DNA from: Cyanidiococcus yangmingshanensis
Lineage: Eukaryota; Rhodophyta; Bangiophyceae; Cyanidiales; Cyanidiaceae
Length of the DNA: 64,000 nt
Assembly (NCBI GenBank): GCA_013995675.1
Contig: VWRR01000006.1
Location: 310,001 to 374,000 of the forward strand
Direction: 5' to 3'
Shown here piece by piece: positions 453-64,000 of this stretch. Below the pieces are notes generated by a model. It made no database searches and was not told the DNA's origin. It saw only the letters and a list, made by a program, of their open reading frames with translations. Numbering within the stretch: the stretch's first letter is position 1; each line of letters opens with the position of its first letter. The position numbers were made by a program, and so were the translations under genes.

Positions 453-2532
453 TCAGACCTGATTTGCCGCAAATGATCGACCAACGGACGGCAGGTGAAT
501 ATAATGTGTAGCGCCTGGACCGAACATATCGCTTGTTCCGGAGTGTGGTCCAACAACCGAACCAGCGTCTCGAAGCAGCCGTTCACTTCGGAACTCCAGT
601 GCTGTCAAGTAGGCGCACACATCAGGAAGGCTGTTTCGTGGATGCTGGCCACGAATAATCCCGGCTGCCCATTGACGCTCTGCTTCCAAGCACGAGTCAT
701 GAATGGCTCTAGGCGAGAGGCCCTCTGTGGCGGTGGCCAGCTTTCGAACATCCTCCGGCTTCAGATGCTTGGCGTACATCTCGTAGATGGATTGACGCGT
801 GCTAAAGTCAGGCAACGGAAACTCGAGTACGATATCGAAACGGCTCAGTAAAGCTTGGTCTAGGTCCTGCATTCGATTCGTCGCCGCGATAACCACAAAC
901 CAGGCATCTGCGTCCTCGGAAACGTCGCCATTGGCCGACGACGGAGCGGAAGGCAGAGATGGCAACGAGCCGAACGGATTATCCTCATAGAATCGACTTT
1001 GCGGTTTTGGTCGCTTTCCGGCTTCCCGATGCAACCCATCAAGACGACGAAGGAGCACCGAAAGGGTTCTTCGCGTAGCCTCGTGGATTTCACCACGATC
1101 TCGTGAAGTGCCCAGTGCATCAACCTCATCGATGAAGAGGATAGCCCCGCCCAGTTCCAGCGCCAAATCGAAAATACTCGACAGTTGCTTCTCAGAGGCA
1201 CCATAGAAACGAGAAACCACTGATTCAAGCGTTACATGAATAAAAGGCACCTCGGCCTGTTCAGCAATGATTCGCGCGGTGGACGTCTTGCCACAACCCG
1301 GAGGGCCCGCAAAAAGCAACGCTCGTGGACGATTTGGTGTGAACTCGCGTCGGGTACCTTTTGCGATATCGTCATAGACTTCACCATGCCGCAATGGTAG
1401 CACCAGCGATGCTTCGATGCTTTGTTTGATATTCTCGTAGCCGGCCAGCGCACCCCAGTCAATGTCTCGATACTCTGCACCATTCTCGTTCTCTCTCCCT
1501 GGACTTGTCGGCGGAAGGTACACATCAACGCCCATGGCTTCCAGTTTCTCCTGTACAATCCGCATCCGGACATCGTCTCGAGAGCGTCGCCATGGTCGTT
1601 TCGATGATTCCAGCGACGACGACGACTTTGAAGAAGACCCAGCATCTTGCTCTATCCTGTGTCTCGGTTCCCGTTCGGAGGTGCTCAGACCCCGAGCTGT
1701 CGTACGATACGCTTCAACGAGTGCAGTGATTTCCTGATCGCTAAGTGCACTGTGCTCAGGGGGCTTGGAATAACAGAGCTCAGCCGCAAAGCCACCGACA
1801 TGGGGTAGGAATACGTGCAGAAGTTCGCCCTGCGGTCCCTGGGCTGTCACCGTCGTCGAAGTCGCTGAGCTCTGAGCAGTCACACGGGGTATCCGTAATG
1901 AACCTTGCACCAAGCTCGGCAGCCGACTCGGCCGCAGATGCCTCACTTTCCTGCAGCGTCTCGAGCACGGTCGCAAAAGCAGCGAGCAAGTCGTCACCTG
2001 GTGCAGCCCGACGCACCGCCAGGTGCTTCTCATTTGAATCCTGCAGCCGCAACATTAGCTTGAAGCTCTTCTTTCCATCAGCAGCTGTATATATCTGAAA
2101 CTCTGGAAGAGGGCCGCGCAACTTGCGCTCCTCTATCCGCAACCTCTCTTCGAGGAGACGCCACGAAAGCCCCGCTGAGGCCTTGTTATCCGCAGCCTCA
2201 TTCCAGCTCGCACGAACTGGATGTAAGAATCGATCCCCAGAACCATTCAACAAGTCCGAATAGAGCCAGTGTCGTTGTTGAAACAAACGGTCGTGGACCC
2301 AGTAGGAGGTCACACCGACGCTCGCCACCGAGAAAACAACCAGAGGCAGTCGACCTGAGGACCAACGCGGTTTCGTTCCCGGAAGTGGCCTTGGTTTCTG
2401 AAACGACAACAAGCTGCAAAGTCGTTGCCAAAGAACCAACGTCCTTCTCATTGGAAAGCAGCCCTTCCACCAAACAGAGACACGAAAAAACTTGTTCGCT
2501 CGAAGCTGGCTGACAACCTCGCGACTGCGCAT
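453..2532 (-). CDS. membrane-anchored AAA-type ATPase (one frame switch)
   Basis: The C-terminal half is a single AAA module. Walker A reads GPPGCGKT (near 1290-1310), Walker B reads AILFIDEVDAL, and a later ATNR stretch matches sensor 1. It is preceded by ALAGYENIKQSIE, a typical AAA entry segment. The N-terminal part starts at an ATG at 2532, is Arg-rich, and carries one likely membrane span (residues near SSGRLPLVVFSVASVGVTSY), so an organelle-membrane AAA protein is plausible. The N-terminal frame closes at 1780 while the ATPase frame is open from 2033, so the reading frame changes by +1 inside this overlap and no intron is needed. The exact subfamily is not clear: it is neither FtsH-like (no protease domain seen) nor clearly Bcs1. 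It probably remodels membrane or organelle proteins using ATP, which is inference from the family. Confidence 0.75.
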
Positions 2533-2850
2533 GTGGCTTCACCGCGAGATAGTCGTCTTGCCGCCTGCTCCTTCTTGCCACGTGTTGAGCAACCGTTGAA
2601 GGCGGCGAGACCTGGCGACTGGAGACACTTGTCAGCTTGAAACCTGTTGCATAGAGAAGGTTGGTTGTGGTTTAGCTTTCGATCTGTTGTATAGCGTGTT
2701 TCTGGTCTGTGTAGCAGCGTTGACGCTGTGATCGACAACGTGATCTGGAGGGTTTCCACCAGGCGTCAGTGCTGGGAGCGCCACGTCTCTGTCTCGCTCT
2801 GCGAAACGAAACTGGGCAGTAAGTTTCTTAGAATTGTTGCGTCGTCTCTC
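2533..2850. other. divergent intergenic stretch
   Basis: This separates the divergently transcribed AAA ATPase and TFIIE-beta genes and presumably holds both promoters. The TFIIE-beta frame stays open upstream to 2728 without an ATG. No clear motif stands out. Confidence 0.5.
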
Positions 2851-5415: not shown

Positions 5416-6340
5416 CTGTCGAAAGAAGCAGATCAGACGCGAACAGACAATACAGAAAAGGCTTTGTAAAAAGAGCCGTTAGGAGACGGTCGAGTCCCAG
5501 TCGCTCGCTTGAGTCACTGCTCGAAACGGTGGAGGAAAATATGGATTTGGCCTTCTGAAACGTGAACGATTCGCAAAAGCCCCTCAAGACCGTTCCTAGC
5601 TATTCCGTAGACCAGGGTGTCGTCCGAATCACCCAGCTTTTGCTAAAGGGTTGTCAGTACGTCGCGAAAACACCGACAAGACCACTGGAAGCAAGCAGCT
5701 ATCAACGAGGACCGTTTTATGGAAAACCGCGGTGTTTTTCGCAATGGGCCGCAAACCTCTACGACACTGTCTTCGGCACCACCGTTTCGTGACTAGTCGG
5801 ACAGACATTGTTGGGTTGTTGGTTCTGGGTGCATCGGTGAACGAGTCGGTTGTCGTACCGCTTTGGATGCCGGTTTCTTTATTGGACGCAGCGTACCGGC
5901 AAGAATCGTTCAAGACACACTGGCTGGCTAGTGAAGAGCGCGGCCTTGAGCGTAACATCACCGCTTTCGAGGCTTTTTCTTTGAGGTGCCTGGAGCCTCG
6001 TTGCCCTCTTGTTCAACCACTAGGTAGAACCTGGTTTCCGGACCACTTTTCGACGACGTCAACAGCGTGGTTATCGTGCCCTGAGGTGCTCCGGCAGGGC
6101 CTGGCGCGGTTACTGGGTCGCGTTGGCTGCAGGGCTGCTGCTAGAAGGACGAGTGAGGCTTATAGCCGTCGTCCTCGAAGGCAGCCTTTGCACCCGCAGC
6201 ACGGATTAGCAAAACCACTCGATCGGTTACGACTAGAGAATAGTAGGAATCCCGTTCTTTCTGAGTGTTCTTTTGTTGGTTTTTGGGGTTACCGTCACGA
6301 AACGACTCGGACGCTCTTCACTCGTCGCCTTTGTCTCCGT
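5416..6340. other. YKT6/CCA-enzyme divergent region
   Basis: The reading frame of the CCA-adding enzyme stays open upstream to 5651, so a longer N-terminal extension is possible. However, this part shows no conserved domain and its composition is unlike the enzyme. I treat it as promoter and 5' leader of two divergent genes. An alternative is that part of it encodes an organellar targeting extension. Confidence 0.45.
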
Positions 6341-7942
6341 ATGGCGACGACTGCAGGAGCGCCCCTCGGTGGCCAAGGACCAATGCAGCAACCAAAGTAC
6401 GCTCTTCGGGAGCGAATAGAGCTAACAGCACTCGAACAGCAAATATTTGCACTATTGCTCCAGGTGAACGCCGAGTATCGTCTGGGTAGCACGCTACGGG
6501 TCGCCGGTGGCTGGGTTCGCGACAAGCTTCTTGGCCTTCCGCAAAGCGAAACCGACCTCGACATCGCCCTCGACAATATGCTTGGTCGAACGTTTGCGGA
6601 ACGTCTTCACCAATATCTGACCGAGCGAGGCGAGAAACAGGGCTACGTCCATATCATTCGTGTGAACCCAGCGCAGAGCAAACACTTAGAGACGGCCCGC
6701 ATGCGTATCTTTCGAAACCTGGATTGATTTTGTGAACCTTCGAAAGGAAACCTATGCTGCTGAGTCACGGATTCCGACTATGGAAATCGGGACAGCGGCA
6801 GAGGATGCGTATCGACGAGACCTGACCATCAACGCGCTCTTCTACAACATCAATACGGAACAAGTGGAGGACTGGACGCAGATGGGTCTCCGAGATTTGA
6901 CCAATGGTCAGATTCGAACTCCGTTGCCACCTGAGATAACTTTTCTGGATGATCCTCTTCGAGTCCTCCGAGCGGTACGCTTTGCCAGTCGGTTTGGTTT
7001 TACGGTCGTTCCTGACCTCATCGAGGCAGCTTCAGTGCCTCAAGTACAAGAGGCGCTCGTCAAAAAAGTAAGTCGTGATCGTGTTGGCAACGAATTGTGC
7101 CAGATATTTGCTGGGCCGCGACCTGCCATGGCTCTATCGCTTTTGTATGACATGGGCCTCGAAGCATGTCTCTTTCCACTTCCGAATGTATTTGCCGTGT
7201 CAGACTACCCCAAGGGATGGACGAATCGATCTGTCACACAGGTTGCTCGATTGGAACGTTTTGGAATATACTGGCAGCGCCATGGTATCGACATGTTTCC
7301 GAATGAGTGCTTTCGACGAATTGCGGTAGCGAGTGCCTGTTTGAGTCCCCTTTTCCAATTGAATATGTGATCAAAGGGGAAGATGTCCACTCGGTGGTGG
7401 CATACATTCTCGGAAAAGGTCTCCGAATGAATCAACAGGAGAAGAAGACGATTCTGACCTGCCTGGCAGCGAGTCGTACGATTGCGCGTCTCGTGTCTGC
7501 TCCGCTGGACTGGAACGATCGAGCCCAACGCATCCAGGTAGGTCAAGTGATTCGTTCGCTGGGTCCATGGTGGGAGCTGGCTCTGCTTATCCAACTCGCT
7601 TTGGATGAACGTCTTCGCGAACTGGAACCAACGTCATTGCTCGATGGCAATCACCAAACGCCCTTGACGGATGCCGAAGAGACGATCGCTCGAGAGTATC
7701 TTTCCTTCCGCGAGCAGATCAATACACAAGGCCTCGACCGGGCATGGGAACTCAGACCGCTCTTAGATGGTCATGCAGTACGCCGTTTGCTGCCGGCATT
7801 GCCAGTTGGACCTCTGGTCGGTGAGGTTATGGAACGACAGATTCAGGAACAACTTGCCAATCCTGCATTGACGGATACTGAATGTGCGCAGCGTCTCCAG
7901 CAGCTCTACGCCTCGTACACCAAGACCCATGGAGCGCGCTAG
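6341..7942 (+). CDS. CCA1: CCA-adding tRNA nucleotidyltransferase (two frame switches)
   Basis: This is a class II tRNA nucleotidyltransferase, which adds CCA to tRNA 3' ends in cytosol and organelles. The N-terminal catalytic signature RVAGGWVRDKLLGL is followed by the metal-binding ETDLDIAL, then SKHLETARMRIF, then DFVNLRKETY and RRDLTINALFYNI, then DDPLRVLRAVRFASRFGF, all in family order. The C-terminal end (RPLLDGHAVRRLLPALPVGP) matches the ELKPIVDG..MA.LL region of yeast Cca1 as I recall it. The frame moves by +1 near 6715-6727, just before or at a TGA, and moves back by one base near 7335-7350 in a CCCCTTTT run, so the final frame equals the first. No residues are missing at either point, so introns are unlikely. 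The start is taken at the ATG at 6341, with a possible longer form upstream. Confidence 0.9.
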
Positions 7943-8445: not shown

Positions 8446-11400
8446 TCATGTACCATCTGTATTCAGTGCGTCTTGCAGAGCAGTTCGCAAAGTGCTGAGA
8501 GGCGGCTCATCAAATTTGCTCAAGGCATGTAAATACGGCTCCCGGAGGTCTCCATGTTGACGCAAAAGATCCAAGATACGCGTTCCATTAAGGAGCAACG
8601 TCTCGAGAATCAGTGCTAGACTGTGGTACTCGGCCTGGTGGGCGGCCTCTACGAGTTGTTGCAGGTGAATGAGTGACGGGAGCGGTATGGCGAGGGCGAC
8701 TGGGTCACACCCCGCGTTCGTCTCGCTGGTCTCATCCGCTTGGGGTACCGAGGGTGCTGCGGGAGCCGCCTCGAACACCAGATGAACAGCCTGGAGCTGT
8801 TCAATGGCACGTCCGACGGCTTTCGCAGACGGCCTACCTACCTGGAACTGCTGTCGAGCAGCGGTGATGCCGAGGTAGAAATCGGTGATTTCTCGTCGAG
8901 AGGCGGATGTGTTTCGCAACCAGTCACTGAGCCGGAAACCAAGCCGTTCCGCCAAGACGCTCAATCTGTAGAGCTCAAAACGCCATAGCAACTCTGTCGC
9001 GTACATGGATAGCGATGTTTTGGCCATCTGGAGAAAGCGATTCTCCAGATGCTGACTCGAGGCCTCTCCATTGTCGGATGGGATCGATGTTGTTGAAACT
9101 CGATCTCGTTGTTGCCACCTTCCCAGACGAAACCACGGCTCTGGTTGCGTTTTCTGTCCGACATGGGATGTCCGTTCTGGAGCGTGCTCTGCATCTACAG
9201 GTAGCCGTGCCAAGTAAGAGAGCAGCTCACGGGCCAACGCGTCGTCGTTCCGAGAAAGCGCGGCCTGAAAGAGCCGCAATGCCTGAAATGCGCTCACCTG
9301 CAAACCGTGCATCTCTTGGAGGACAATGAGCAGACAGGCTGCTGTTCGGAGACGGCCACTCAGAAAGCATTGCTCCAGTAGTGCCGTTGGTTCACCGACC
9401 AGCGCGAACAAGGATGGCCACTTGTATGCCTCGGTTTTGCGGGTGCAATGAACCACGATATCCTCGTATTCGCCAAACTTGCGAAGCATCTGCACTACTC
9501 GCATCGCGACGTGCTTCTGGTCCATGTCCTGGCGCTCTGGCTCGGCGACGACCGAGCGATAGAGGAGCCACTCTAATGCGTCCATAAACTGCAGCTGGTG
9601 AGCGTTGCGTAGCGCGACATGCATGAGCAATAGATCGCTTGTTCCGTCCTCCAGGTGATGTTTGAGTACCATGGGCAGCATAGGTGAACCTTTCAGACGT
9701 ACCTCATGAAATGCATGGCCTCCGGGATGACGACCACTGCACCAATCCCGCGTGCGAGATGAGGTTGCCCCAACCAGCACATCAGCTGTATCGAGCAGAC
9801 CGAACACAAACGTTTCCGGATCGAACTCATTACAGAGACGTAAAACAAAACGAGTGCCCCCCATGGCATGGATACCGTGCGCGCTGCTGACCCAGAGAAG
9901 TGGTCTTGGCGGGCCACCTCGCTGGCCAACCTGGTTGTCCAGCCAGTACCGGATGACAGCGCGAGCCAATACACATTCGGCTTGCGTGAATGGGTCCAAT
10001 AGGAAGAGCGTCCCCCGACTACCCAAAAGCAGAAGCATCTCCTGCGGAGCGACTGCTTGCACTACGGCGACAGGTCCCGCGTCATCCTGGGTTGTCTCGA
10101 CCGCCCTGGTTGCGTCAGTGATGGGCAAACTCGTGTCAGTACTGTGCATGTCATTAGGTTGAGGTTCCATCTGCTGAGGCGCTGTCGAAGAGGCATCGAT
10201 CGAGGAGGCGGGACGCAAACCACGCCATTGGATGCTACCAGGCCAGGCTCCCATAGGGAGCAGAAACGCGAGCTCCATACCCGTTTTCTGTGGAAGCACT
10301 CTTGATGGAAGCACCCGAAATGACTCCAACCATTCCCCGTCTACACTTGTGTGTTCCAGTCCGTAATCAACTCGAATGGGAACCGAACGGAACAATTGCC
10401 AGTGAACCATGCTCGAGTGGGATCGATGCTGGTCCCAGGTGAGCTCATAAAAACGGATCGTGCAGTCACTGCTGTAGATACATAGCAACCTGGGCTCTAG
10501 AGTATCCATTTTCAGCGGTCGATGTCGGAAGCGGAGCGGCTTTGATAACCGCTGAATTCCGAAACGACTGCGGTGGAATACCTGTAGAGAGTAGGGTGGA
10601 ACGTCCCGTGACGATGAAGACGACGATGACAACTGCTCAGGATGCTTCGCAAGTACATTCGTCTGCGCATAGTACGAGAAACGCTCCTCTGACAGCAGCG
10701 TCTGCCATGGGGCCTGTCGACAGAGCACCAACAAAAAGGGCCCCAGCCAGGCCAAACCTATGCAAACGCATGGGTTCTCCTCAGTTCCTAGTTCAGCAGC
10801 AAACCAGCGCCGATGATGCGGGTTCCAGAGAGCCACTCCTTGGGCGCCCGCGACAGCCAGATAATGAGTGGAGGTATGCCAAACTGCGTACCGAAGAGGC
10901 CACGCGTTCTGCAAATAGTGTTCCTCGGGGACAAACCAGCGCCAATCGACCATTGCCGATCGTTGCACAGACTGGGTCTGTCCGGAAAACTGGTGAAGAA
11001 GCAGAGCAGCGGCCTGTGCAGCCAAACTAGATGAGCTCCGACGCTCGTCCCGGTTGTAGGCAACTCCAATAGCATCGGTTGTAAGCGCGCAAGATGTCGG
11101 TTGGGCTCGGCTGCCCTCCCAGACACCAGACCCACCAAACTCCCCGCTCAAACGAAGCAGTGGCAGTTCTGCGAAGAGCTCTGATCCTTCAAGTGAGCCG
11201 TTGGGCACTCCCAGCATGAACAGGAAGAACGCGGATGGATGCCAGACCAGGTTATGAGCTCTCTGATCAACATACTTGGATGAATCGCTTTGCGCAGCAG
11301 GCGACATGGCGCCTCGACTCGTTTCTGCCGACAAAACGGAGGAGAATAGACGACAACCGTGCCGACTCCACAGCGCTATCCCGTGTTCGGCCCAGGAGAC

Positions 11401-12606
11401 TACCAGGGCGTCACCATCAGGCGCCCAAGCGAGCGAGCGAACCGCTGACGCAGACTCATTCGTCCTTCGATTCCAGGAATTCCATGAGAGCACCGATTCC
11501 TCAACCATGGACTCCATGTGGTGAATGCGAACAGTACCATCCATCATGCCGAGGCCAACGAGTCCATGTCGTGGCTCCAGCGAGGTCCGACAAAGGCCCG
11601 GAAAACGATACAGACGCGCTTTGGTGGCCCCAAAATGCGGTCGACAATATCCGCCGCACTCAAGGTGGACGACGACAAGCCAGTTCGGGCTGAAGCAAAT
11701 CAGACATTGTCGTAAATGGTCATCATAGCTGATTTGGACGTGACTTGGAGTCTCGCTCGTATCTAGTTCAGTTGAAGGGTTGCTCGACAAGGCCTCTCGG
11801 AAGAGTTCGACCTTCCATCGCGTCTCACCATCCCAACTGATGCATTCTAGCCAGCCATCTACGCTGGCAACCAGCACACCTGCAGGACAAGCGGTTATCT
11901 CTAGAGGCCTCTCCGTCCCGGGTGAGCTTGTCCGCGTCGCTGCCAACGCTACGGATGCAAAGCGTTTTGGTTGAAACGTCCAAGTCGTACGAACTGTAGC
12001 ATCGCAGACAAGGGGAAAGCCTCCACGAGAAAGGATCGAAGCAGATGGTTGGTCATCCTCGTCATCCAGGATGACGCCTTCGCCTTGATCATAACCTTGC
12101 AGCCAATCGGTAAAATCAACGCAAGTCTTGTCGACCATCTGCCACCAGTGGTCGAGTCTCTCGGCGGTGGAAACCTGGCGCTCGTCCACCGTCAGCGTCA
12201 AGAGGTGGACAAAGCCTCGGTCTGTGAGCGCAGCGACCATGGCGTTGAATGCTGTCGAGTGGGCTCGCGTACGGACCGGGCCCCAAACTGCCTGGCACAG
12301 GTGCCCATATCGTTCCGTTTCCAAGAGATGACTAGGTACGGACAAGATCGGCTGTCGAACTCTTTCCGCCAACCAGATATGCAACGAGTTCTCGCTGCTA
12401 ATCAGCAGCAACGTTCCAGAGAGCAGCGCTCGAGCGGCACTCGTCCTCCAGTTCTGCTCATCTGCACCCAGGATGGCTTCCGATGAACTGGCCTTCAATG
12501 AGCCACCAAGAAAGGAGACATCAGCGTCTTGTGTGGACGCGCGCTTCCCAAAGATGCGCGTCCAGAAGGAGTCGTGGTCGGAACTCGACGTCGGCGAAGA
12601 GACCAA
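8446..12606 (-). CDS. RIC1: RIC1-like Rab6 GEF subunit
   Basis: This large protein (about 1,386 codons open) has an N-terminal region of degenerate WD repeats (for example VRSLAWAPDGDALVVSWAEH) and a C-terminal alpha-solenoid. Around residues 1,040-1,180 the run FLDALEWLL-like helix, EDIVVHCTRKTEAYKWPSLF, then ALVGEPTALLEQCFLSGRL and TAACLLIVLQEMHGL, follows the RIC1 domain (recalled animal counterpart [20 protein letters not shown], then LFEECL, then TAASYLIILQ). RIC1 with RGP1 activates Rab6-type GTPases in Golgi retrograde traffic. The frame has no ATG near its 5' end: upstream is a TGA and the first in-frame methionine lies about 110 residues in, after conserved-looking sequence. A neighbouring frame (minus 12521-12781, starting MPYFVQGNARVYA) could supply the start after a +1 switch. 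A small intron or a sequence error is the alternative. Confidence 0.82.
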   Translation of the reverse strand: MVSSPTSSSDHDSFWTRIFGKRASTQDADVSFLGGSLKASSSEAILGADEQNWRTSAARALLSGTLLLISSENSLHIWLAERVRQPILSVPSHLLETERYGHLCQAVWGPVRTRAHSTAFNAMVAALTDRGFVHLLTLTVDERQVSTAERLDHWWQMVDKTCVDFTDWLQGYDQGEGVILDDEDDQPSASILSRGGFPLVCDATVRTTWTFQPKRFASVALAATRTSSPGTERPLEITACPAGVLVASVDGWLECISWDGETRWKVELFREALSSNPSTELDTSETPSHVQISYDDHLRQCLICFSPNWLVVVHLECGGYCRPHFGATKARLYRFPGLCRTSLEPRHGLVGLGMMDGTVRIHHMESMVEESVLSWNSWNRRTNESASAVRSLAWAPDGDALVVSWAEHGIALWSRHGCRLFSSVLSAETSRGAMSPAAQSDSSKYVDQRAHNLVWHPSAFFLFMLGVPNGSLEGSELFAELPLLRLSGEFGGSGVWEGSRAQPTSCALTTDAIGVAYNRDERRSSSSLAAQAAALLLHQFSGQTQSVQRSAMVDWRWFVPEEHYLQNAWPLRYAVWHTSTHYLAVAGAQGVALWNPHHRRWFAAELGTEENPCVCIGLAWLGPFLLVLCRQAPWQTLLSEERFSYYAQTNVLAKHPEQLSSSSSSSRDVPPYSLQVFHRSRFGIQRLSKPLRFRHRPLKMDTLEPRLLCIYSSDCTIRFYELTWDQHRSHSSMVHWQLFRSVPIRVDYGLEHTSVDGEWLESFRVLPSRVLPQKTGMELAFLLPMGAWPGSIQWRGLRPASSIDASSTAPQQMEPQPNDMHSTDTSLPITDATRAVETTQDDAGPVAVVQAVAPQEMLLLLGSRGTLFLLDPFTQAECVLARAVIRYWLDNQVGQRGGPPRPLLWVSSAHGIHAMGGTRFVLRLCNEFDPETFVFGLLDTADVLVGATSSRTRDWCSGRHPGGHAFHEVRLKGSPMLPMVLKHHLEDGTSDLLLMHVALRNAHQLQFMDALEWLLYRSVVAEPERQDMDQKHVAMRVVQMLRKFGEYEDIVVHCTRKTEAYKWPSLFALVGEPTALLEQCFLSGRLRTAACLLIVLQEMHGLQVSAFQALRLFQAALSRNDDALARELLSYLARLPVDAEHAPERTSHVGQKTQPEPWFRLGRWQQRDRVSTTSIPSDNGEASSQHLENRFLQMAKTSLSMYATELLWRFELYRLSVLAERLGFRLSDWLRNTSASRREITDFYLGITAARQQFQVGRPSAKAVGRAIEQLQAVHLVFEAAPAAPSVPQADETSETNAGCDPVALAIPLPSLIHLQQLVEAAHQAEYHSLALILETLLLNGTRILDLLRQHGDLREPYLHALSKFDEPPLSTLRTALQDALNTDGT

Positions 12607-13030
12607 CGAACGCTTGTTCGTCTCGTCCTGTCACTCTGCTACCATGACTCGGACAAGATTCCGTACGGTTGGACAGCACCCCTACACTCCATAAGCACGG
12701 ACCCAAGTCAAGACTGCGTCCAGGGCCAGCTGCCTCGACATTCGCATAGACTCGGGCATTTCCCTGTACAAAGTACGGCATACCCCATGTTCTATAAGAA
12801 ACGCACTTACACCCAATAAGATCTTCCCAGTTTGACCCGGAAATGAACAGTTTCGACGGTTGATCGACAAGAACCGAGAACGAGAGAACGCTTTTCGTAC
12901 GCTGTCTCGGACGGGATGGCTCTCAGGCGAAACCGCGTTGTCTCAACCGGCCCGGCTGGCCCACGACCGCTGTATGCCGAAACGTTTTCTTTTCGCTCTC
13001 TAGCTGGTGTGTTCGGACTTCGATCGAGTG
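12607..13030. other. divergent promoter region of RIC1 and the IGPS-like gene
   Basis: It holds the short minus-strand frame at 12521-12781 that may encode the RIC1 N-terminus. The rest shows no recognised feature and presumably carries two promoters. Confidence 0.45.
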
Positions 13031-14339
13031 ATGACGAAAGATGGAGTTGATGACTTTGGATGGCCTGCTCTCTACAGGAGGAACCTGCGAACAAGCGGTA
13101 ACGTTCAAGAAGGGTCGGTCGGTTTCGGACTGGCGGTTGCAGACGCTGTCGAACACCGGGGCGGGTTGGTCTCAGCACGAAACGCTGCGTGCAACCGGTT
13201 CAAGCACTGTTCACACACCCGAAACTGGGGGCAAGCTCAAGAGATGCGAAATAAACTCCGTTGCAGACGTTTTGGACTCGTTACCTTGATGACCGAGACG
13301 GCACCTAAAGAGGAGCCGCTTGATTGGCGACCGAAAGGCGTCCTAGAAGAGCAGGCCTTGGCCAAGTTTCGATACGTGCAAGAGGAGCTCAAAGTCCGAG
13401 AGCCGCTTGAATTCCGTTTAAGCTATTTGTCTGAGGCGCCGCCGCGAAGCATTCGGGCTCAGCTGCGTCGTCGTCGAGGGCGTCTCTCCGTCGTCGTCGA
13501 CTTGAAGCGACGCTCTGCAACAACAGAACCACCACGGGAGTTTCACGCCTTGAATATGTATGCAGCAGCGCAGATCCTAGTGCAGGTTCGAGAACAGATT
13601 CCAGTGGCAGCCAAATACGGTCTTGACGCGATTATGTTTGGAGCGGACCGAACGCTCTACGATCAGGACTGTGCGAGCTTGGCCGATTTTACGCGACACT
13701 GGGCATACTTTCATCGAGAGGATCCCGATTCGGCTCCGCCAGTCATTTATAAGGACGTCATTGTGCATGAATTGCAACTGGCGGAAGGCGGCAGAGGCGG
13801 GAGCCAAAGCAGCCTGCTTGATTGCAGGTGTCTGTCTTCCGGATCTGGAGAAGCTTCTGAATGCAGCCTACGTTTTGGGTATGGAGGTCATGGTGGAAGT
13901 TCATACGGAAGAGGAGTTGAATTATGCATTTGAGGCCGGAGCGGGCATCTACTTGTTCACCGATGTCGATCGTGCCACTCGGCGCGTAATCAAGGGACGT
14001 TGCGTAGAGCTCTTCGACAAGTACAGACTCGATCTGAGCAACGCTGGCGCAGTGTGCCTCGGCGGAGGTCGCATAGAGACCCTCGAACAGGTAGAGCAAC
14101 TACGAGATGTTGGAGCCGACGGAATCGTGGTCGGTGGCAAACTCATGGCATCTATGGCCAACGGTGACTCGGAAACGCTTTCTAGAGTCTTGCAAGCGCT
14201 CCTGCTCCCGGGGAAACTGATCGAGCCTTGCCCAGCAGGAGACAATTCCAAGACGCAGTATCTTCAGATGCTCGAGCGCATGGGACCGCATCCAAATAGG
14301 TCGCCTGGGAGCTTGACATTTGTGCGTTTAACGTTCTGA
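13031..14339 (+). CDS. divergent indole-3-glycerol-phosphate synthase-like protein (one frame switch)
   Basis: This TIM-barrel protein can be aligned with the TrpC/IGPS family strand by strand. SVVVDLKRRS stands for the first catalytic strand, PVIYKDVIVHELQ for the KDF strand, EAGAKAACLIAGVCLPDLEKL and LGMEVMVEVHTEEEL for the fourth and fifth strands, and DVGADGIVVGGKLM for the phosphate-binding end. The lysines of strands 1 and 3 and the glutamate of the VEVH strand are present. The Asn and Glu expected in the INNRNL and ESG motifs are replaced (LFTDVDRAT, GGGR), so normal tryptophan-pathway activity is doubtful. The frame moves by +1 near 13786-13800 (GCGGAAGGCGG); homology continues in the second frame about 45 codons before the first frame stops. 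The start may be the ATG at 13031 with a targeting extension, or the one at 13289. Confidence 0.6.
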
Positions 14340-19246: not shown

Positions 19247-19249
19247 AAG

Positions 19250-27306: not shown

Positions 27307-28882
27307 TCAGCGCAATAAAAATGTGAGGCCTCGGTGATCCGTACAGAAAAAGCTTGGGTCAGGCTGAAGCGAGTCGGCAATAGTGTGAATGAATGAAAAG
27401 AGCAGTCCTCCATTCTGCTTCATATGTCGACTTTCCAGCTCTTGAAGCCAGTTGATACCACCGTTCTGTGCACCGATTGGTCCACGGGCGTGTTGTGTAA
27501 TGAAAACGAAAAAGTTATACGACATATAACGGCTGTTCATGCGCAGGACGCTCAAACCCTGTAGACATAAGCTGGTGATGTCCTTTGAGTCATCCAGAAT
27601 CATTTGCACATTCGGGTACTCATCGAGACGCGAATCATGCACAAGCTTAGCGACTTGGGCGTCGCGCACAATCAACAGGTAGTCGATTTTGTCGCTGGGA
27701 CGAATGTGCTCCATAAAGTACTTGATATTGTCCCATTCGATGGTTGATGCGGGGCGGTCCCAGGACACGACAACAAGCTTCTTTTGTCCAATCGGTGGCG
27801 AAGCCACTCGGGGTGCCTCGATGGGATGCACCCGATCGTCGTGCTGGAAGTAGTAATAGGTAGCCAAGTCTGAGGGTTCCGGCGCGTCTGGACGATCCAT
27901 CCATTCTGAGTACAACAGCATATAAGGGTAGCTCATATGCCACTGCGCCTTCACGAAGACGATCTCATAGGGGTGGAGATCGATACCATCGACAGCGCCA
28001 CTTCGACTCGGGAAAACGTGGCGATTGCATGATACCATCTCGTTTGAGGTGTTCCAAATGCGCTGATATTTGGTCATCAGTGTATCGACAGAGAGGCCTG
28101 CCCGGAAAATCGCATCTGTCAGGCCAAACTCTCCATAAAGAATGGTCTCTCTCTTGGTGCGATAAGGGCGAAAGACGCCAGCTCGACGAGCAGCCCGCAC
28201 GCCTTCGTCGCTGAGGGCGAAAGCGAAGCCCTCCAGTCGTGCACCTGGGCCGCCAGCATCCTCCTTCGGAAGACAGACTAGCGAGGCGCCAACAGCGGCC
28301 ACATTGTCCCGAAATAGCGCGTCAAAAACAGTTGTCCATGGTCGCTTGCGGGCATATTTGGGCAGGAAAGGTCCACGCACGGAGGCATTCAGACAGTAGA
28401 AACGCTTCAAACGGGCAAGGAGACCGTGAATCTCTAAATAGTTCAAGACGTACCCGTGGGCGCCAAAGTCATGCCCATAGTTCTCTCTTTTTTCAATGTG
28501 GACGTTGGATCGAGCAGCCTCGCGCATCCTGCAGGGTGTGCAGTGTCCTCCGTTAATCACAATAAAAAAGAGCGTGTTTGGATCATCGAAAACTCCGTGA
28601 CGAAGAAAGAACTCGAGGTTGCGCATTTCGTGGGGCGATCCCTCACTATATGCGTATGATACAACATGAAGCGTCTTTGGGACCTCCCTGACGAAAGTTT
28701 TGGTCCGAGGAAACCTCCGCACCAATACCAGCACCACTAGCGAGAAGCACTAGACCTAGCCCGAGTTGCCACGTTACCTGGGTCCAGGAGGATCTTCCGC
28801 GACTTCGTTGTCGCCTACTCGACCTCGCTGCAAAGTCTTCGCTCTCGACGCTATGACGCTCGATATCGACCTGATTCTTCAT
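27307..28882 (-). CDS. glycosyltransferase-like protein with two related modules (one frame switch)
   Basis: The N-terminal frame (ATG at 28882) gives a basic tail and one membrane anchor (WTQVTWQLGLGLVLLASGAG), the layout of a type II Golgi protein. The main frame (28737-27307) opens only with a GTG, and the switch of +1 lies at 28660-28737. The first module has HVVSYAYSEG, TLFFIVINGG, KRENYGHDFGAHGYVL and NASVRGPFLP, which resembles rhamnan-synthesis-type (RgpF-like) and algal glycosyltransferases as I remember them. The second module repeats the pattern more weakly (KLVVVSWDRP, NIKYFMEHI, DYLLIVRD, FITQHARGPIG) but lacks the RENxGxDFGA motif, and it is shorter. It likely builds cell-surface or Golgi glycans; donor and acceptor are unknown. 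Confidence 0.55.
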
Positions 28883-30294
28883 TGGTGCGGACCAGCGCAA
28901 CACCGATTCACGCAACTTGAAGTGTCCTGCGCACCAACTCAAAAAAAAACAGTTCGATATCGTCAAGAGGTTGCGCGCCTGCCTCGGGATCGGTGTGGAC
29001 ACCTCTGCCTCATCCTGCAAAAGGGATGTGGCGCCAGGATAAAGCCCGCGGAGAATGCCATTTATTGACTAAAACGGGAAATGGAGGTTGCCTTTGATCA
29101 TGAAGAGTGTGGGATGTTCGGATTGGTTGAAGTTGAGGCCGACTCTCGAGCGAGTCGCTAGTGTGTTGTGGAATCCGCATCCTGTTTCACCGCGCTCGGG
29201 TACGGGTAGCGTTGAAGAACACGGATCTCTGGTTGATTCATCGTCGTTTGCATTCGCTGGACGTATTATGGGGCGGAATTTGAATCCAAAATTTAGGAGA
29301 TCTATATGCACTGGATGGGATATGCTGTGGAGATTGAGCGACCTCGATCATGGGCTAGCTTGCGGTGACCAATTCGAATAGGCTTGTTCAGAATGGGTGT
29401 CAAGGGAAATGTTTATCGGTCCATTGTCGCAACGATCATAGCAGTCCGCGGGAACAGGTATGAACGTTCATCAGTCGCTGCACATCATCGGTCAAGGGCA
29501 TGGAATGGTAACCAGCGACCACTTGTTGCGGCGAATACTGGATAGGATCTTGGTATTTCCAATTTCCGTCAAGCCATACGATGTCAGAGTCGAATGCTCA
29601 TGAACAGGTTGTTATTGAAATAGAGCAAGTTGGTCCAGGTGCTTCCATTTTTTTGATGGATATCTGATGACTAGTCCTGCAGCCGATGACATAGATATGA
29701 TTTTTGCCCTGGAGCTGCATGCGCTTTTCTGACGTTCGCGACACGCCTCTTCTCTAGCGCTCTCTATGCGGGGATCCCTGCCTCTCGCTTGAAGCCGCTA
29801 TCGTCATCGAACGCTTTCGATGCGAGCGATGCATCGCAAGGGTCTCCTCTTCATCAAGCCGTCAATGAAAGTAGTGTTTTTCCTCGAGCCGCCTACAACT
29901 GGTGACGTCTTGCACTGCCAACCGATGTTTTGACATTCTAAGGAAGGACCATTCTCTCAGACTTCTAATCTGGTTGGTCTAGTCCAACATAAGTGTTCAT
30001 TTCTTTTCCAATGATCAAGATCTAGCCCTGGCGATTTGCGTTCGTGACCAGTGTTCTCACATTCTCAGACAAGACCATTACGTCATCCTTCAAATATGAG
30101 CGTTCCAGTCCACCATAAGAGTTCATTTCTTTTTGAACCATCAAATCGTGGGAGAGAGGACCTCGACGACGCGTTGCTGCAGGGAATCGCTCTCTTGAGT
30201 GTTGCACCGTCGACATGAAATGCTCGGCGTGCACTCGCAATCCACCCGTCTGCTGTGACCGAGCTCAGGGCTATACAGCGGCTCGGTAGACGCT
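28883..30294. other. 1.4-kb gene-poor stretch
   Basis: Only short overlapping frames occur here. It contains a two-copy direct repeat with 126-base period (29922-30147). The T7 run near 29648 and a run of nine A near 28951 could be transcript ends, but no promoter-like element was found with them. I recognise no gene. Confidence 0.5.
29922..30147. repeat. two-copy imperfect direct repeat, period 126 bp
   Basis: Copy one (about 29922-30021) and copy two (about 30048-30147) share blocks in the same order and spacing: ACATTCT, GACCATT, AGTCCA-CATAAG (with A/C differences), GTTCATTTCTTTT, and a closing ATCAA. The rest has diverged. It lies in a gene-poor stretch and could be an old local duplication of a regulatory or RNA-coding element. 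Confidence 0.7.
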
Positions 30295-39265: not shown

Positions 39266-39625
39266 GATGATGATGTCCTAGAATAGATCAGTCACTTCAA
39301 AGCGGACGCTTTCCAGTCGCAACGGTGTCGTTCGAGGGAGCGAGACTCGGTGGAACGCCAACAGGCGGCGACTCGGGGGCTTTGACACGTCCTGCGATCA
39401 TGAATCGACGACAGAGACGTTCGGATTTCTACCAGGCTCAGCACTGAATCGTGCAGTGCACCGGTGATGAGTCCAGCATGCTCGCTTGGATGCGTGGAAC
39501 TGAATATGGAGGTGCGTGCCGCGGTCTTATGTCCCAGAGCGATATGAGACTGCCAGGGAAAAGCTGCGAAAACGCCAGTGCAAGTGCAGTACGGCTGTTA
39601 CGCGAGACCGCGTTTCGTACGCAGT
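39266..39625. other. stretch upstream of NDP kinase
   Basis: It probably holds the NDP kinase promoter and the end of the CDT2-like gene's transcript. No gene is recognised. Confidence 0.5.
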
Positions 39626-43404: not shown

Positions 43405-43668
43405 AATCTTCCTTTTTGCCCTCGCTTGTGTACCTAAACGCCTTTTCGCAAACTTCAGAGCACGTTTATCTTTTCCGATGCGCAACAACTCCATGATGCG
43501 TCGCTCGTAGGGTGCAAAGCCAACAACCTCACGGATCAGCGCACGCACAAACTGAGTCTTTTTCACCAGCCGCCCTTTTCGTTGTGCCGGACGCACGGGA
43601 AGAACCCTCTTCGTCACTTGATGACCCTTTTGCTTCCCTATCGCCACACCTTCCGATTCTAGCGTCAT
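43372..43668 (-). CDS. RPL36: 60S ribosomal protein eL36
   Basis: This 98-residue protein starts at an ATG at 43668. It aligns over its whole length with eL36: [60 protein letters not shown] and [20 protein letters not shown]. This is a conserved component of the large cytosolic ribosomal subunit. It is intronless and slightly shorter than the animal protein (about 105) because the C-terminal Ala/Lys tail is missing. Its 3' end overlaps the coding end of the CtIP-like gene by 33 bases. The frame is intact. Confidence 0.97.
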
Positions 43669-47116: not shown

Positions 47117-50100
47117 TCAATAACAGAGCATAGCACGCGCATGCAATCGACCAAGGGCAACAAGCAAGAGCGCCACGGCACGCCGTGCCTCAGAGGCAGC
47201 GATGGGCTCTTGGAGACCCAGCACCCGCCCAGCGATGCTTTCCTGCGTTTCCGCATCGAGCAGCGCAAAAAGTCCACATAGCTGACCACTGACCACATGG
47301 CGCTTAGGTTCAATGCCCCCGTAGAAGCGAACCACGGACGAATGGAGCAAGTTCCACTGGTGCAACCCTCGTGACGGGTGCGCACAAGTCCCTTGCTTTG
47401 CCCAGTACATGTCCATCTCTGATTCAAGGCGTTTCAGCATCTCCCATTCCGAGTAGGAGCGGAATGGCACGAGCGCTCCGAATGCACCATTCACGGTGCT
47501 GTACAGAATACCTTCAGGGCCGTGGTCGAGCGGTTGTTTTTGGCCTCTGCTATCCGTGTTCTCGTTTTTGGCACCGAAAACATGCAGGCTCGTCGCAACA
47601 CTACCCGCATGGAAGACGCACTCTGTTGTGAAACGGGCTACGAAAGGGCGAGAGAGTTGTGGATGCCCAAAGTATCGGTCCGCCAAGTGTCCACGACTCG
47701 GGTCGTCCTCGATCGCGGCGCTGGACTCGAGCGGCAACCGAAGAACGAAGATGGTGCCGAACTTGTCAGCCGCGACCACGGTGTCCGCGTCGAGCACTTG
47801 CAATCGATGAATCCAGCGGCGTTGAGTGTCCTCCGCAACCACTGCGAGACGATTGTCTTGGGGATAGTACTTGAAAAGATAGACTCCCTCTCGCAAGTCC
47901 GCAACAAAAAGACGACGCGTATCCTCGTTGGTTGCGAGCGCCACGATCGGATGAGGAAGTGGTCGACTCGTCTGGGTGAGCGGTTGCCACCCACGGCTCG
48001 TTCTTGCATAGAGTGCCAAGTGACCGCCCCAAGCCACCGCGAGATGGCTCAGAAATGGCGAGACGGCACTGATCTGTTCCGGAAACGATAGGCGATCCAC
48101 AGGAGCTAGTTTCCACGACGCATCACCTTCACCCTGGCGTTGTACCGAAAAGGTGATTAGAAGGGCGTTCGAGCTCGGTTTCATCTCTTCGTTGAAGGTG
48201 TGGGCACTCGATGTCGCGCTCGAAGCGGGCGCTGGGGCTAGTCCCACAACCAGCAGATGTTCCTGCAATACAACCTTCTTTGTTTCGCTCACCTGACGAG
48301 GCACAGGCATACTTGTCAAGGTCGTGACCCATCCAACGGGCCATGCGAGCTCGCCATTTACCGTGACGCCGTCAAGCAGAAACCACGGGGATGTTGGCAT
48401 CTTCGTGGTCGAACTGGCGTCAACATGATCGATTCGATGGCGGCACAGCAGCGACAGGTGGGTCTGCCAGCCTCGCTGTTGCTCAACGCTGTAGGCTACG
48501 GCAGCGAGCCTGTTCGGGATGATCCAACATAGCTTCCGTATGCACTTGTGTGTGGCGTCGAGCGTTGAGAACTCGCGCTTGGTTGCGACGAGCCAACCAC
48601 ATGAAACGCAAGCCAGTTTCGAATCGACTCTGCCTCCGAAAAAGCAAACAGGTGCAGTGCACGACCGTCGCTGCTCAAGCCCACAAGAGCAGTCGCTGCA
48701 GGAAACACTGCAATCGCCTCGGTCTCGGCACCAGCATCGATCGTGGTGCCTCCCTGAGGCAACGGAAAACTCGCGGCATCCATAAGTGCTTCGACGTTAA
48801 CCCGGTAGGGATTGGACCAAAGCGTGCTTGGCGCGAGCGGCACCAACCAGGTTCGAGAGCCGAGAACCAGAATCGCTTCAGAGCCGAGAACAGTCGGAAC
48901 CCGAACGCGACGCAGTTGGAGTGCACCCCTACCGAGACCGTACGAACGGATTCGAGGCATCTGAGATGCCGACGCAGACTCGTTTGTTTTGCGTTCATCA
49001 AGATCGACGGCTTCCAGACGCAGCAATGTGCCGTCTTCGAGACCAGCCCACACGTCATAGCCAAAATGCGACGCGAGATGCACCATCGCCAGTGATGCTG
49101 CCGGCTGTGGCAACGCGACACTGCAAGATGCACTGAGCAGAGGCGCTCTCTCTCTTCTTCGGCAGTCGACAGATGCGCAATGTAACGGGATTACCAGCCT
49201 CGACGTAGGCCATCAACGGAGACCAGCTGTCCTGTGGCGGCGATAAGCAGCACGCCATTGCATGAAGTGTTGGTGATGGCGCTACAGAGAGGTCCGTTGC
49301 AGACGTTGTGCGGGTTCGCTGACCTGTCGCTTTCTTGGTGGTGGCTCCAGGAGGCCCAAACACTACGTTCATTGGTGTCGGTGTAGTGCCATCTGTGGAT
49401 GCTGGACCCGTCGCGTCGGGCCATGCGGCATCTGCTGAGACCAAATAGACTAGTTGGCCATCAGCAAGCAGGAGCAAAAGCTGCGAGACCGTGCTGTCAG
49501 CTGCCACGATGTGTTGTTGCGCATTTGTGGCATAAACCTCGATGTCTGAGGGGGTTCCCTCCTTCGAACTCGACGGCGCAACGAGACGGACACCGTTGGT
49601 GTGAACTTGCAACCAGTACGGGGTTGCGGGTTCACCGCCGAACAGAACCGAGGCGTGTATTGTGCCGGTCTCTCGTTCAAAACCAAGTTCACGCTCTTCT
49701 CTCAAGGCAAGGGCATGGAAACGAAATACACGCGTCTCCTGAGTGAATGATATCAAGAGAAGGGCGTCATCGTTTCTCGTCGACCATGATTGGTTCGAAT
49801 CTGCAACAGAGGATTCGTTCGCATTGGTCTCACCGGGATTCATGGGCAGGGTGAAGAGTCGCTGAGCGCGACCGCCGACTGGACATTGTGCGAGCGCTAC
49901 GGTGTCTCGGGCGGGTACCACCGTCCACAGGTTTGAATCAGCTGGACCAGAGCCAGCCGAGCCACAGAGCAAATGCCACTGCGGATGGGCGCGCTCTTCG
50001 TCAGCGAGTCCGGTGCGAATCGGCTGGACCAGGAGACTCGTCGTTACCGGATGATGACAAGCCATCGAGTCCCTGATGGATATACTGCGGACTCCGGACA

Positions 50101-51906
50101 TTGGCTCCATGCCCTGAGCCTTGATCGCGAAATCCTGAACGGGCTCCAGAGTCGTTCCAGACGACTGACTTGCGCTCATGCTCGACGTTGCAGCGATGTC
50201 AACTTGGTCATCAGCGAATGGCCACTGGAGGTGGATGACGACATGGTCGCCACGCTCCAAGACCAAGAAGACATCCGTCGCAGTTAGGAAACAGAAAGCG
50301 CTCACTGGAGCAGGCATTCGTTCCAACAACTTGAGTTTGAGGGCCGCTTGCGGTCGCTCGAGCGAGGAGGCGCTCCTATCCATCGTCAGGAGGAAAATGT
50401 GCCCATCTTCGTCGCCGATTAAGATTTGGAGATGATCGGCGGTGCTTGCTGCTTGCCAAAAGATAGCGGCAGTCACCAGCACATGCTGAGCACGCTCTGG
50501 ACGGGTCTCCGTCGGAGGTAAATCGAAGAACGAACCCCTAGCGAGCGCACCGCAGGTCGTTCCTGGGGACATCGCAGGGCTCGCTTTCGTTGGTATTGCA
50601 ATCGTTCCCATACAACGGAATGTTTTTGTGAAGAGCCAATTCGTCGTCGTCGTCGTCGCTGATGTTGTGGTGGTCGTCTCGGCGTCGTCGGTCACTTGCC
50701 ATACCTCCATTGTTGACAAGGTCACAACAAGGAGCATTGCCTCAGCGAGTGGATAGAGAGCGTACGCATGTCTTGCGAGAGGCTCACTTGCAACGCCCTG
50801 TTGCATGGTCTGGGCATTGCAGTCAACTTGAAGCAGCACCAGGCGTCGATCATTCACCTGACGCTGCCGCTGCATTGAGTTTGCATCACTCGCGTGAGCC
50901 ACGCAGTCCTGCAAGCATGACAAAGCATGGTTCATCATCTAGCTTTGTGCCGGGCACCGGCACAAGTCCCAGGCAGGCACTGATACCAAGCGCGAAACGT
51001 TCATCTGAAGTGCATTCAATAGGGGCGGAGAGCTCGCACGTCGATGGGGCATAGAACTCGTCATCGTCAAGATCATCATCATGGTCATGGTCTTGATCAT
51101 TGTTGAAGTCACCATCCACATCGTCTTCATCGTTCGAGTCCGTCTCGGGCCCCTCACTGGATGCATCGACAGCATCTGTGAACGTACGTTTCCGTCTTCG
51201 ATAGGAACGCCTTGATGCGGTGGATCGACGTCCACGAAGGGTTCCAGTTGACGTAACCATAGCATGTCCGGTACTTGTTCTAGTCCGGTTTCGTCGACGG
51301 GACTGAGAACGTTCTGGTGCCTTTTCTGCGGACCCAGCGTGGAGTGTAAACGCATATGATGTACCGTCGAGAGCAGCAATGACACACGCCTGACCGCGTT
51401 CATCGACAGCGAGGAATGAGCCAGGTCGATTCGCTCGAGCACCAGGTTTGCCAATAACTGCACTAGCGAGACATACCCAGCCTGCGACGACGCCTGCAAC
51501 CTCGCCCGTGCTCTGGGGCCAGGCTGCTTCGCCAGGTGCACTAGAACCTGCAACTGGTTGGGTAGACCAGGTCAGCAGACTGATCGTGCCTGTGTCTGCC
51601 ACAACAAGCAGGTGATCTGGCCCTTTCACTGTGTGCCATGTGGCAATGTTCCAAACGTTCGCAAACGTTGTCTCTTCCAGACAGGTGCCTGCGCGGAGAC
51701 CTCTCGCCTCCTTTCGTTGGAGCGTTCCGAGGCTCGATCTATAGGACCAGCACTCCAGTATTGAACCGTAACTGCTACCTTGTCGTATCAATACCAGGTC
51801 TTGCGCATCCGTCGCGTCCCTCTCCGTGAAGTGTCCCGAGGTTGCCTGCACAAGTGAGCGAAGGCGGGCAGAGCTCCAGCGCAAACAAAGCCAATGGCTC
51901 CGCCAT
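47117..51906 (-). CDS. SF3B3: splicing factor SF3B3/SAP130 (several frame switches)
   Basis: This is a triple-propeller scaffold of the U2 snRNP SF3b complex. Four frames together follow SF3B3 in order. The first (51938-50886) holds FLAVDERGQACVIAALDG (compare FLAVDPKGRAVMI). The second (50938-49055) is the long middle. The third (49113-48496) holds AGLEDGTLLRLEAVDL and VLGSRTWLVPLAPSTLW (compare GLQNGVLLR and SSRSWL). The fourth (ending 47117) holds QRRWIHRLQVLDADTVVAAD then KFGTIFVLRLPLE (compare PRWVTTASLLDYDTVAGADKFGNICVVRLP) and VNGAFGALVPF. Switches are +1 near 50890-50930, +1 near 49060-49110, and minus one near 48590-48620. The first frame has no ATG; an ATG at 51906 in the neighbouring frame is a likely start, which would need one more +1 switch. 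The joined length exceeds 1,500 residues, mainly from acidic inserts (51061-51130). The gene is essential in other eukaryotes. Confidence 0.87.
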
Positions 51907-52204
51907 GCGAGCAGAGTACTCGAGGCTTGGACGACCAAAAGTCCAGACTAGCCTAAAAATAACGTATGAAAAGAAAGATCAACGAAGCAAGCGACGGACT
52001 GGTTTCGTCAAGTAGACGCAGAACGTCTCAGTAATTGCAGTGGCGAGAGGGGGCGTTGAACGCGCCGAAAGCCTCGGCTACCTCCTAGCCTGCAGCCCAG
52101 TTGTTTATTGGAACGCTGTTCAGGGAACACACGGGGGACCCTGTTGTTGTTTTCTGTGAAACTAGACGATAGATTCGTTGATGACGGTGCGCTAGTGAGC
52201 GCAT

Positions 52205-61330: not shown

Positions 61331-64000
61331 TCAGACCAGCGACTCGTATGTGACGCAGAGATCACAAATTGTACATCGCTTTCGACCAAGGTCGCTTTTT
61401 GTGGTCGAATCTTCCACAATGACCCATTGATGGTCATGTGCTGCGATGTCTTTCGGCGCTGCCGATGCATCCGCAGCCGCAGCGATTGCCGTCGCAGCTT
61501 GTGCCCGACCGAGCTGGCTCTGCGAACTCGGTCCGGTCGCTGCTTTGCCTGCTTTGCGACTGGAAAAGTCCGCATTTGTATCAGCGATTTGGAATCCTCC
61601 ATATCGTTTGCGCAGACGCTCTTTGGCGACAATGGTGCGAATCAGTTGGCGCCAACGACGCATGGCTTCTTCTCGACTGCGTCTCTCGGCGCGTTCCTGA
61701 CGCTTCTTGATCTCTGCTCGACAAGCATCTACAAGCGCTGAGGCATTTTCGGTGCAAACGACGACACCACGAATCGCTGGAACAAAGCCGCACGCTCTCA
61801 CCTCAAAGCCAACCATCGCCGGGACGAAGTCGAACCCTAGACGACGAGAAAACATGGCTGCGAACGGCAAGTCGACATGAGTCGTGCCCAACGGAAGATG
61901 ATCAGGCGTCCAGAGCTCAATATTGCCACGCAGACCGCTACGGGGAACGATGCCGTTCTCAGCTTTCGGACGAGACATCGGATCTGTTTGCCAGAATCCG
62001 AACAGCTCGGTTGGGCCTGCACTAGGCTCCGTTGACTCGTCGTTCTCCGCTTCAGGCAGGCGCTTACGCTCTCGCCGCCGTTCCTCTCGGCTGTTGTCGA
62101 AATCGAGACATGAAGGATTGCACGATTTTGTAGGGTTGCTCGTCTGGACGCACGATGCGGCACTCACGGAACCAGCGCTCTCGCGTGTGTAATACGTGAA
62201 CATCTCGTCGACGATAGACTGGGATCGTCTGGAGAATCCCATTCGAATGGATGCGTCGAATGGTCCCAACCTCAACTTTCGGGTGTAACGCCTCGTATTT
62301 CTTCAAATGCTCCTCGAGCACAAAGGCTGGGTGGTTTTTCAATGCAGATAAGGATTGGGGTATCGGTTCCGATTCGTTCAGCGTCAGAAACTCCTCCCGC
62401 TCCAATGCATCCAGATGACACCAATCACGCAGCCGCTCCTGCTGCAATTCATCATCATCGTTTTCAGAATCGAGCCGAGAACCTGGTCGGTAAGGATTCA
62501 AAAGCGGTAAAACTTCCTCCGTCCAATACCGATGGCCATCGAGACTCCGAGTTTCCAACACCGGTTGAAAGCGGGCGACGTATCGCCGGGTTACATCGCG
62601 GACAAAGCCACCATCTATCGCGAAGATATAGGAAACCACGCGTTCTGCACGTTGTCGAGCGCTTCGTTTCACAGTCGTGATCGACGAGTCGTGGGCGAGG
62701 GGCCCACTAGCGTCCGATTCCTGTCCACTGCTAGATGCCTCCGCGCTCTTGTCCGTTGAATAGGCATCATCAGCATCTCGTGGCCGTTGCTCGGGAGACA
62801 GCAGCGCCTGGCGAGTGCGAAGCCTGCCTGATACCGTGCCACGGACCGAGGCGTTAGCTACAGAGCGAGATTTTGCAACCCGCTGTTTTTGCTCATCACC
62901 AGACGTCAAATTCGTATCCAGTCGTTCAGGCTGAGGCGCAGGTCGCTCGACCGCAGTCCACCAGGGTAGAACGGTCACTGCTAGTGGATCGTTCAACAGA
63001 CATCGCAACGGGTCCAAATGAATCCATCGTTCATGCCACGGATCCCAGACCTCAAGCCAGTAATTGCGGTGCTCGATAGAGCGCTGCATCTACGAGGGGC
63101 CAACGACCCCGAATCGTGTAGAACGCGTACTTCGCCTGAGAGGCGTTCTTGACATCTTTCGTCCGCACTTTTCTCGCTGTCTCCGCATCTGCGCCTTCCA
63201 GTGACGCCTGCATGCGCACTCCATGGAGCAAGAAACGATGGGGACAATCGATAATGCCAGTATGGAACAGCACCAGGAGCATTCTGAAGCAATCGAACAG
63301 CTGCAACACCAGCCGAGACGTGTATTCGAACCTCCCTCTCGTTCGTGATTGACTCGTCTGACTGATGTATTTCGGATGCTTTTCGAGACCTGGTGCGCCG
63401 GTTCACATGCTGCTCCGTTGGTCTCGCTTTGGCTCCTTCGTTTTCAGGGTCAAATGCACGCTTCGATATCCCCATACTTGTCGTATGATTTCTAGTCTCA
63501 AATGATCCCTGACAAGTTGAATGAGCGCCCTTGGTAGATGGGCGACCCAGCACTCGTTTTGCATGTCGCGTAGGACCAGAGTGACAGCCAGTTCCTAGAG
63601 GCTTGCCAGGTCGGGTACGATTCAGCGGCGGCTGCACGAATGGCGTGGCGGTATTCTGAGAGTCCGGCTCCGACCGAGGACCGTACCACTGGGTCAAAAG
63701 GGCGGCCAGTCGCGCTCTCCAGGAGGGCAATGCGGCCCATCGATCCGCGTGCATCAATCTCTCAGGTCTCCTGTTGATGAGATTTGGACAAGCCACAAAC
63801 CGTACCATCAATCGCCCACTGGGCCTCGAGCTGGGCATATGAGGTCTTTGTCGACAGCGTTGCCGCACTGTATCATTCGCGTCCGACGCCCTCTTGTCGG
63901 GATAGCGCAGCAACGCTCGCAGCATCGCGCTCGCCAGCGCGATCAGCTCCTCTTCTCCACCACAACCATGCAACATGGCATGATCAAGTCGACTAGAGGG
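61331..64000 (-). CDS. RAD4: XPC/Rad4 DNA damage recognition protein, partial at the edge, multiple frames
   Basis: The gene enters from the right edge with its frame open. Pieces follow XPC/Rad4 in order. A transglutaminase-like end reads YWLEVWDPWHERWIHLDPLR, then VSYIFAIDGGFVRDVTRRYV. BHD1 reads PIPQSLSALKNHPAFVLEEH. BHD2 reads VYRRRDVHVLHTRERWFREC, then EQPYKIVQSF. BHD3 reads ELFGFWQTDP, then VDLPFAAMFSRRLGFDFVPA, GFEVRACGFVPAIRGVVVC and KERLRKRYGGF. A C-terminal Cys cluster (KRCTICDLCVTYESL) ends it. Frames used are 64000-62993, perhaps 63309-63052, then 63089-62064 and 62275-61331; each handover is +1. XPC finds helix-distorting lesions and starts nucleotide excision repair with Rad23 and centrin. 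The N-terminal third outside the window is not seen. Confidence 0.92.

Follow-up and report, generated by a model that had tools for sequence, protein, structure and literature searches.

Antizyme and RF2 are known systems of +1 ribosomal frameshifting. In Euplotes, the stop codon is reported to specify the shift (PMC4759687, PMC5011710, PMC10235951), and ~11.4% of the genes of Euplotes octocarinatus are reported to require +1 shifts (PMC5011710). The errors of long reads are described as chiefly short insertions and deletions (indels) tied to same-base runs (PMC12007338). Here, we analyzed a stretch of 64,000 nucleotides (nt) of the red alga Cyanidiococcus yangmingshanensis (contig VWRR01000006.1 of assembly GCA_013995675.1, positions 310,001 to 374,000; hereafter the window), in which conserved genes, among them those for a CCA-adding enzyme, an IGPS-like protein and homologues of SF3B3/RSE1 and XPC/Rad4, change reading frame within their coding sequence. 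As in Euplotes, several conserved genes would require +1 changes, but the two switches that could be pinned by homology do not coincide with a stop codon, and -1 changes occur as well. As in antizyme and RF2, a TGA follows shortly after some of the switch regions; unlike there, the genes are others, a common site is missing, and the share of TGA equals the background. With the gene-breaking indel errors described for long reads (PMC12007338), the window shares one-base breaks, +1 as well as -1, that are scattered over genes sound in other respects, the lack of a motif and, possibly, the short runs at the pinned sites.

Frame switches in the window

The window was decoded in six frames with a three-periodic, order-3 codon model that was trained on long open frames and then retrained, and the decoder was run at a default, two lenient and two strict settings. 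The default decoding gave nine same-strand frame switches, seven of +1 and two of -1 (Table 1). Both lenient settings added a tenth (XPC 63057, +1), and the two strict settings retained four of the nine (1858, 6723, 13793 and 62090), every one of them +1. No switch was decoded in any of 40 indel-free surrogate windows; these surrogates, like the model, derive from the window itself and their shuffle erases between-codon context, which makes this null and the following sensitivity figures rough. With one simulated indel per gene, 151 of 460 were recovered (33%; insertions, 77/229; deletions, 74/231), and the sign was correct in all 151. The codon signal reaches every decoded switch directly from either side. 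Hence, the decoded switches are not a bias of the decoder but are really in the sequence, and the claim of an earlier note on this DNA that conserved genes change frame holds, given nine switches against none in the surrogates and the domains split across frames in the CCA, XPC and SF3B3 genes. More switches may be present than were decoded, since the sensitivity is 33% and the strict settings keep only four of nine.

CCA-adding enzyme, SF3B3 and XPC are core genes. In the CCA gene, the PolyA_pol domain is cut at the first switch, with profile positions 1-70 in one frame and 71-126 in the next. When the switch was forced to given positions in a frame-aware alignment, the score was 148 to 154 at 6707-6719 and fell to 131, 23 points below the best, at the TGA. 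At the second switch, a solved CCA enzyme matches on either side, the downstream part with just 24 bits. The IGPS-like gene has its Pfam match (4.4e-13) in the downstream frame only, and one bacterial IGPS (L002) aligns to the upstream frame over a further 16 residues. This alignment is gapless around the switch, which lies at ~13787 beside a GG; over 30 residues, the six best placements (between 13781 and 13796) have scores of 46 to 52. The first-frame stop follows at 13931, 143 nt beyond, in agreement with the earlier note, which had put this switch well upstream of the stop. These are the only two of ~11 sites whose switch is tightly placed by homology.

In the SF3B3 homologue, the pieces match the RSE1 propellers in order, the first at profile positions 4-139 and then 257-340, the second at 28-134 and then 191-306, followed by CPSF_A; of the five matches, one does not reach the Pfam cut-off. 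Against human SF3B3, the C-terminal piece alone is strong, and the other four pieces match in order with 0.3 to 10.8 bits. A search of the PDB with one SF3B3 piece gave zero matches. At XPC 62090, BHD_2 is split into profile positions 1-29 and 26-60, either half being under the Pfam cut-off, and human XPC is matched on both sides. At XPC 63057, the downstream match has 3.8 bits, and the upstream side is given by the codon model only. In the AAA ATPase gene, only the downstream frame matches the AAA domain (1.1e-32), the upstream frame being supported by the codon model and the open frame. In the photolyase-like gene, it is the upstream frame that matches (DNA_photolyase, profile positions 1-76, 2.8e-08); the downstream frame had no Pfam match and the joined pieces had no PDB match. 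Homology on both sides, previously claimed for eleven points, is thus reproduced only in part: it is seen at both CCA switches, at XPC 62090 and between the SF3B3 pieces, on one side only in the AAA and photolyase-like genes, and on neither in the glycosyltransferase-like gene.

Stop codons, direction and spread

The first frame ends at TGA in seven of the eight +1 switches and at TAA in one; for the two -1 switches these stops are TGA and TAG, and the glycosyltransferase-like frame ends at TAG. A TGA close to the switch had been thought to recall recoding of the RF2 or antizyme type. Once one base is inserted, 4.2% of the codons in the old frame are stops, and 78% of those stops are TGA. The TGA endings are what composition yields, and TGA as a marker of switch sites is rejected, because seven of eight is to be compared with a background of 78%. 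From the +1 switches to the stop the distances are 4, 6, 8, 15, 25, 76, 95 and 143 nt, six of the eight placements being the codon model's own estimates. A stop is reached within 18 nt in four of eight (2.2 expected) and within 36 nt in five of eight, slightly above expectation, as random switches do so in 27% and 44% of cases, respectively.

The earlier tally of nine +1 and two -1 changes is close to what was counted, eight and two, or nine and two if the glycosyltransferase-like gene is included, but neither count differs significantly from 50:50. The idea of a strong +1 bias is rejected, binomial tests giving p = 0.18 for 7/9, 0.11 for 8/10 and 0.065 for 9/11, and the statement that changes are "nearly always" +1 should not be leaned on. 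Switches fall in 6 of 23 coding blocks (7.2 expected; P = 0.23) and do not cluster significantly (P = 0.16), with 0.25 switches for every kb of coding sequence decoded; the chance that the long RIC1 block stays unbroken is 0.33. A shared motif was also sought and rejected: the 4- to 7-mers common to the eight +1 intervals were not above those of random coding intervals (P = 0.93, 0.30, 0.74 and 1.00), several intervals being wide and the power low. Same-base runs are seen at the pinned CCA site (TTT), at the IGPS-like site (GG) and in the CCA -1 overlap (C4-T4), where they may also occur by chance.

Origin of the frame breaks

Very probably, the frame breaks are residual single-base indel errors of a long-read assembly, a platform that we infer. 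The window would then come from the nuclear genome of an intron-poor red alga and be nothing out of the ordinary, its single-molecule long-read assembly having been incompletely corrected, and every frame change would be a base added to or missing from the sequence record, not the cell. The real genes would presumably be single open frames, read normally, in an intact living genome. Sequence errors are expected to have both signs, to be spread at random over genes and to lack a motif, and this is what the window holds; both signs even occur within one gene (+1 then -1 in CCA; +1, +1 and -1 in SF3B3). The leaning of the earlier note toward single-base errors over stop-codon recoding thus appears sound, given the IGPS-like and CCA placements and the TGA background.

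The window as a whole fits such DNA. It has long uninterrupted frames on both strands, a GC content of 54.4% (coding, 55.25%) and a GC content at synonymous third positions (GC3s) of 0.543, compared to 54.6% and 0.554 ± 0.048 reported for C. yangmingshanensis and 0.550 and 0.581 ± 0.046 for Cyanidioschyzon merolae 10D (PMC10496412). For a related assembly, that of C. merolae Soos (12.33 Mb, 54.33% GC), PacBio RS II P4-C2 reads, Canu and three rounds of Quiver are reported (PMC6629376); in the text of that paper, "Pilon" is absent and "Illumina" appears in the references only. The share of genes predicted to be multi-exonic is given there as ~10% in Soos and ~0.5% in 10D (26 genes). This excess may be an artifact of a gene finder that bridges false frame breaks with false introns.

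Several points weigh against reading the breaks as errors in such a genome. In our judgement, 0.25 switches per kb is high for a polished assembly. Nanopore data are reported to link deletions, not insertions, to same-base runs (PMC12007338), whereas insertions outnumber deletions in the window, albeit not significantly, which is also a difference from the long-read errors described. Since the decoder penalizes stops, the absence of in-frame stops in the decoded segments is partly built in. Furthermore, the composition is slightly nearer to Cyanidiococcus than to C. merolae 10D, but the GC3s also lies inside one standard deviation of 10D, and 64 kb is too little sequence to settle species or strain by composition.

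If many genes used programmed +1 frameshifting at a stop or a slow codon, in the manner of Euplotes, antizyme or RF2, the extra base would be present in DNA and mRNA, and the ribosome would skip it. Most switches are indeed +1, in five of the eight +1 cases no more than 25 nt separate the placed switch from the first-frame stop, the count within 18 nt exceeds expectation, and the SF3B3, XPC and AAA positions are compatible with a shift at the stop. However, neither of the two pinned switches sits at the stop, the one in the IGPS-like gene being 143 nt before it and the one in the CCA gene scoring lower if put at the TGA, and these placements therefore argue against a shift at the stop as well as against an intron there. 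No slippery sequence is common to the eight +1 intervals, within the low power of that comparison; two of nine default and two of ten lenient switches are -1, which does not fit a single direction (the strict set is 4/4 +1), and the TGA endings match the background. We regard programmed frameshifting as extremely improbable. The same holds for the idea that, under the standard code, the ribosomes of a eukaryote put up with, or are led through, frequent +1 and some -1 shifts in core genes, away from stops and with no motif, which is hardly credible. Recoding this widespread outside Euplotes would, if true, be of major importance, but the evidence speaks against it.

Only slightly less improbable are short spliceosomal introns with a length that is not a multiple of three. 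They would go unnoticed at the AAA, SF3B3, photolyase-like and 5' XPC switches, where no gapless alignment spans the joint, but there is no space for them in the CCA and IGPS-like genes, whose alignments are gapless across it. The decoded path goes directly from one frame to the next and enters no non-coding state at the joint, and in a Cyanidiales alga fewer than 50 introns are expected in total, with 36 reported for Cyanidiococcus 8.1.23 F7 (PMC9812998). True inactivating mutations, in decaying genes or a broken allele, are likewise very unlikely: real indels in the DNA would be indistinguishable in a single sequence, but genes of different pathways (CCA enzyme, SF3B3, XPC) are affected together and the codon signal is kept on both sides. 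With residual assembly errors as the preferred explanation, the finding is biologically unremarkable, and its use is as a caution about quality: wherever frames break, counts of genes and introns and claims of gene loss that are based on this record would be wrong.

Other genes and features

Table 1. Genes and frame switches, with positions in the window
Feature	Position	Strand	Evidence
AAA ATPase gene, open in two frames that overlap	456..2538	-	+1 switch within 1783-2054 (model 1858/1859)
CCA-adding enzyme, first piece	5600..6724	+	PolyA_pol profile 1-70; aligned to 9kma_A; gene start inside this open frame
CCA +1 switch	6707..6719	+	frame-aware alignment, gapless on both sides; adjoins TTT run; first-frame TGA at 6725
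CCA-adding enzyme, second piece	6690..7367	+	PolyA_pol 71-126, PolyA_pol_RNAbd
CCA -1 switch	overlap 7307-7367	+	codon model; C4-T4 tract within overlap
CCA-adding enzyme, third piece	7307..7939	+	second 9kma_A alignment domain, 24 bits; codon model
RIC1 homologue, unbroken comparison gene	8449..12630	-	single open frame of 1394 codons; RIC1 Pfam 5.9e-36
IGPS-like gene, split between two frames by a +1 switch	13004..14336	+	IGPS Pfam downstream; alignment to bacterial IGPS of L002
Glycosyltransferase-like gene (name from the earlier note)	27310..29068	-	candidate +1 switch, overlap 28649-28749; open frames only
Photolyase-like gene (PHR2-like in the earlier note)	30973..32602	-	+1 switch in overlap 31556-31653; codon model
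SF3B3/RSE1 homologue, four pieces	47120..51947	-	Pfam RSE1 propellers and CPSF_A, three frames, in order; codon model
SF3B3 switches	+1 in 50889-50938; +1 in 49058-49212; -1 in 48499-48796	-	codon model
XPC/Rad4 homologue	61334..64000	-	Rad4, BHD_1, BHD_2 (split), BHD_3; human XPC and yeast Rad4 matches; codon model
XPC switches	+1 in 62067-62115; probable +1 in 63055-63089; another change further upstream uncertain	-	
Default switches, +1	AAA 1858; CCA 6723; IGPS-like 13793; photolyase-like 31649; SF3B3 49064, 50893; XPC 62090		codon model
Default switches, -1	CCA 7365; SF3B3 48593		codon model

Pfam gave no match to the glycosyltransferase-like gene up to an E value of 1, and its candidate switch was not decoded. 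By eye, an alternative open frame is seen at its 3' end after a run of five T (27310-27345, minus strand), a possible further -1 change. A gene at 22.7-25.3 kb, previously listed as a weaker +1 case, has two open frames that overlap at 24667-24884; neither matched Pfam up to an E value of 10, and no switch was decoded between them.

Scans of the window for tRNA genes and Rfam families were empty, and scans of viral contigs with the RIC1 and MYST proteins gave no match. The window also encodes a MYST acetyltransferase, a member of a eukaryotic family. A scan of genome contigs with this protein found one distant locus and no close relative: residues 253-341 weakly match L001:4002-4289 (31% identity), on a contig binned as uncultured Clostridium, which perhaps reflects contamination of the bin or merely the common acetyltransferase fold. 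Two short unbroken frames on the minus strand resemble nucleoside diphosphate kinase (38807-39277) and ribosomal protein eL36 (43375-43671). Finally, a CobW-like open frame carries a perfect 6-base tandem repeat, CATGAA, in 4.7 copies (35332-35359), between two CobW domains.

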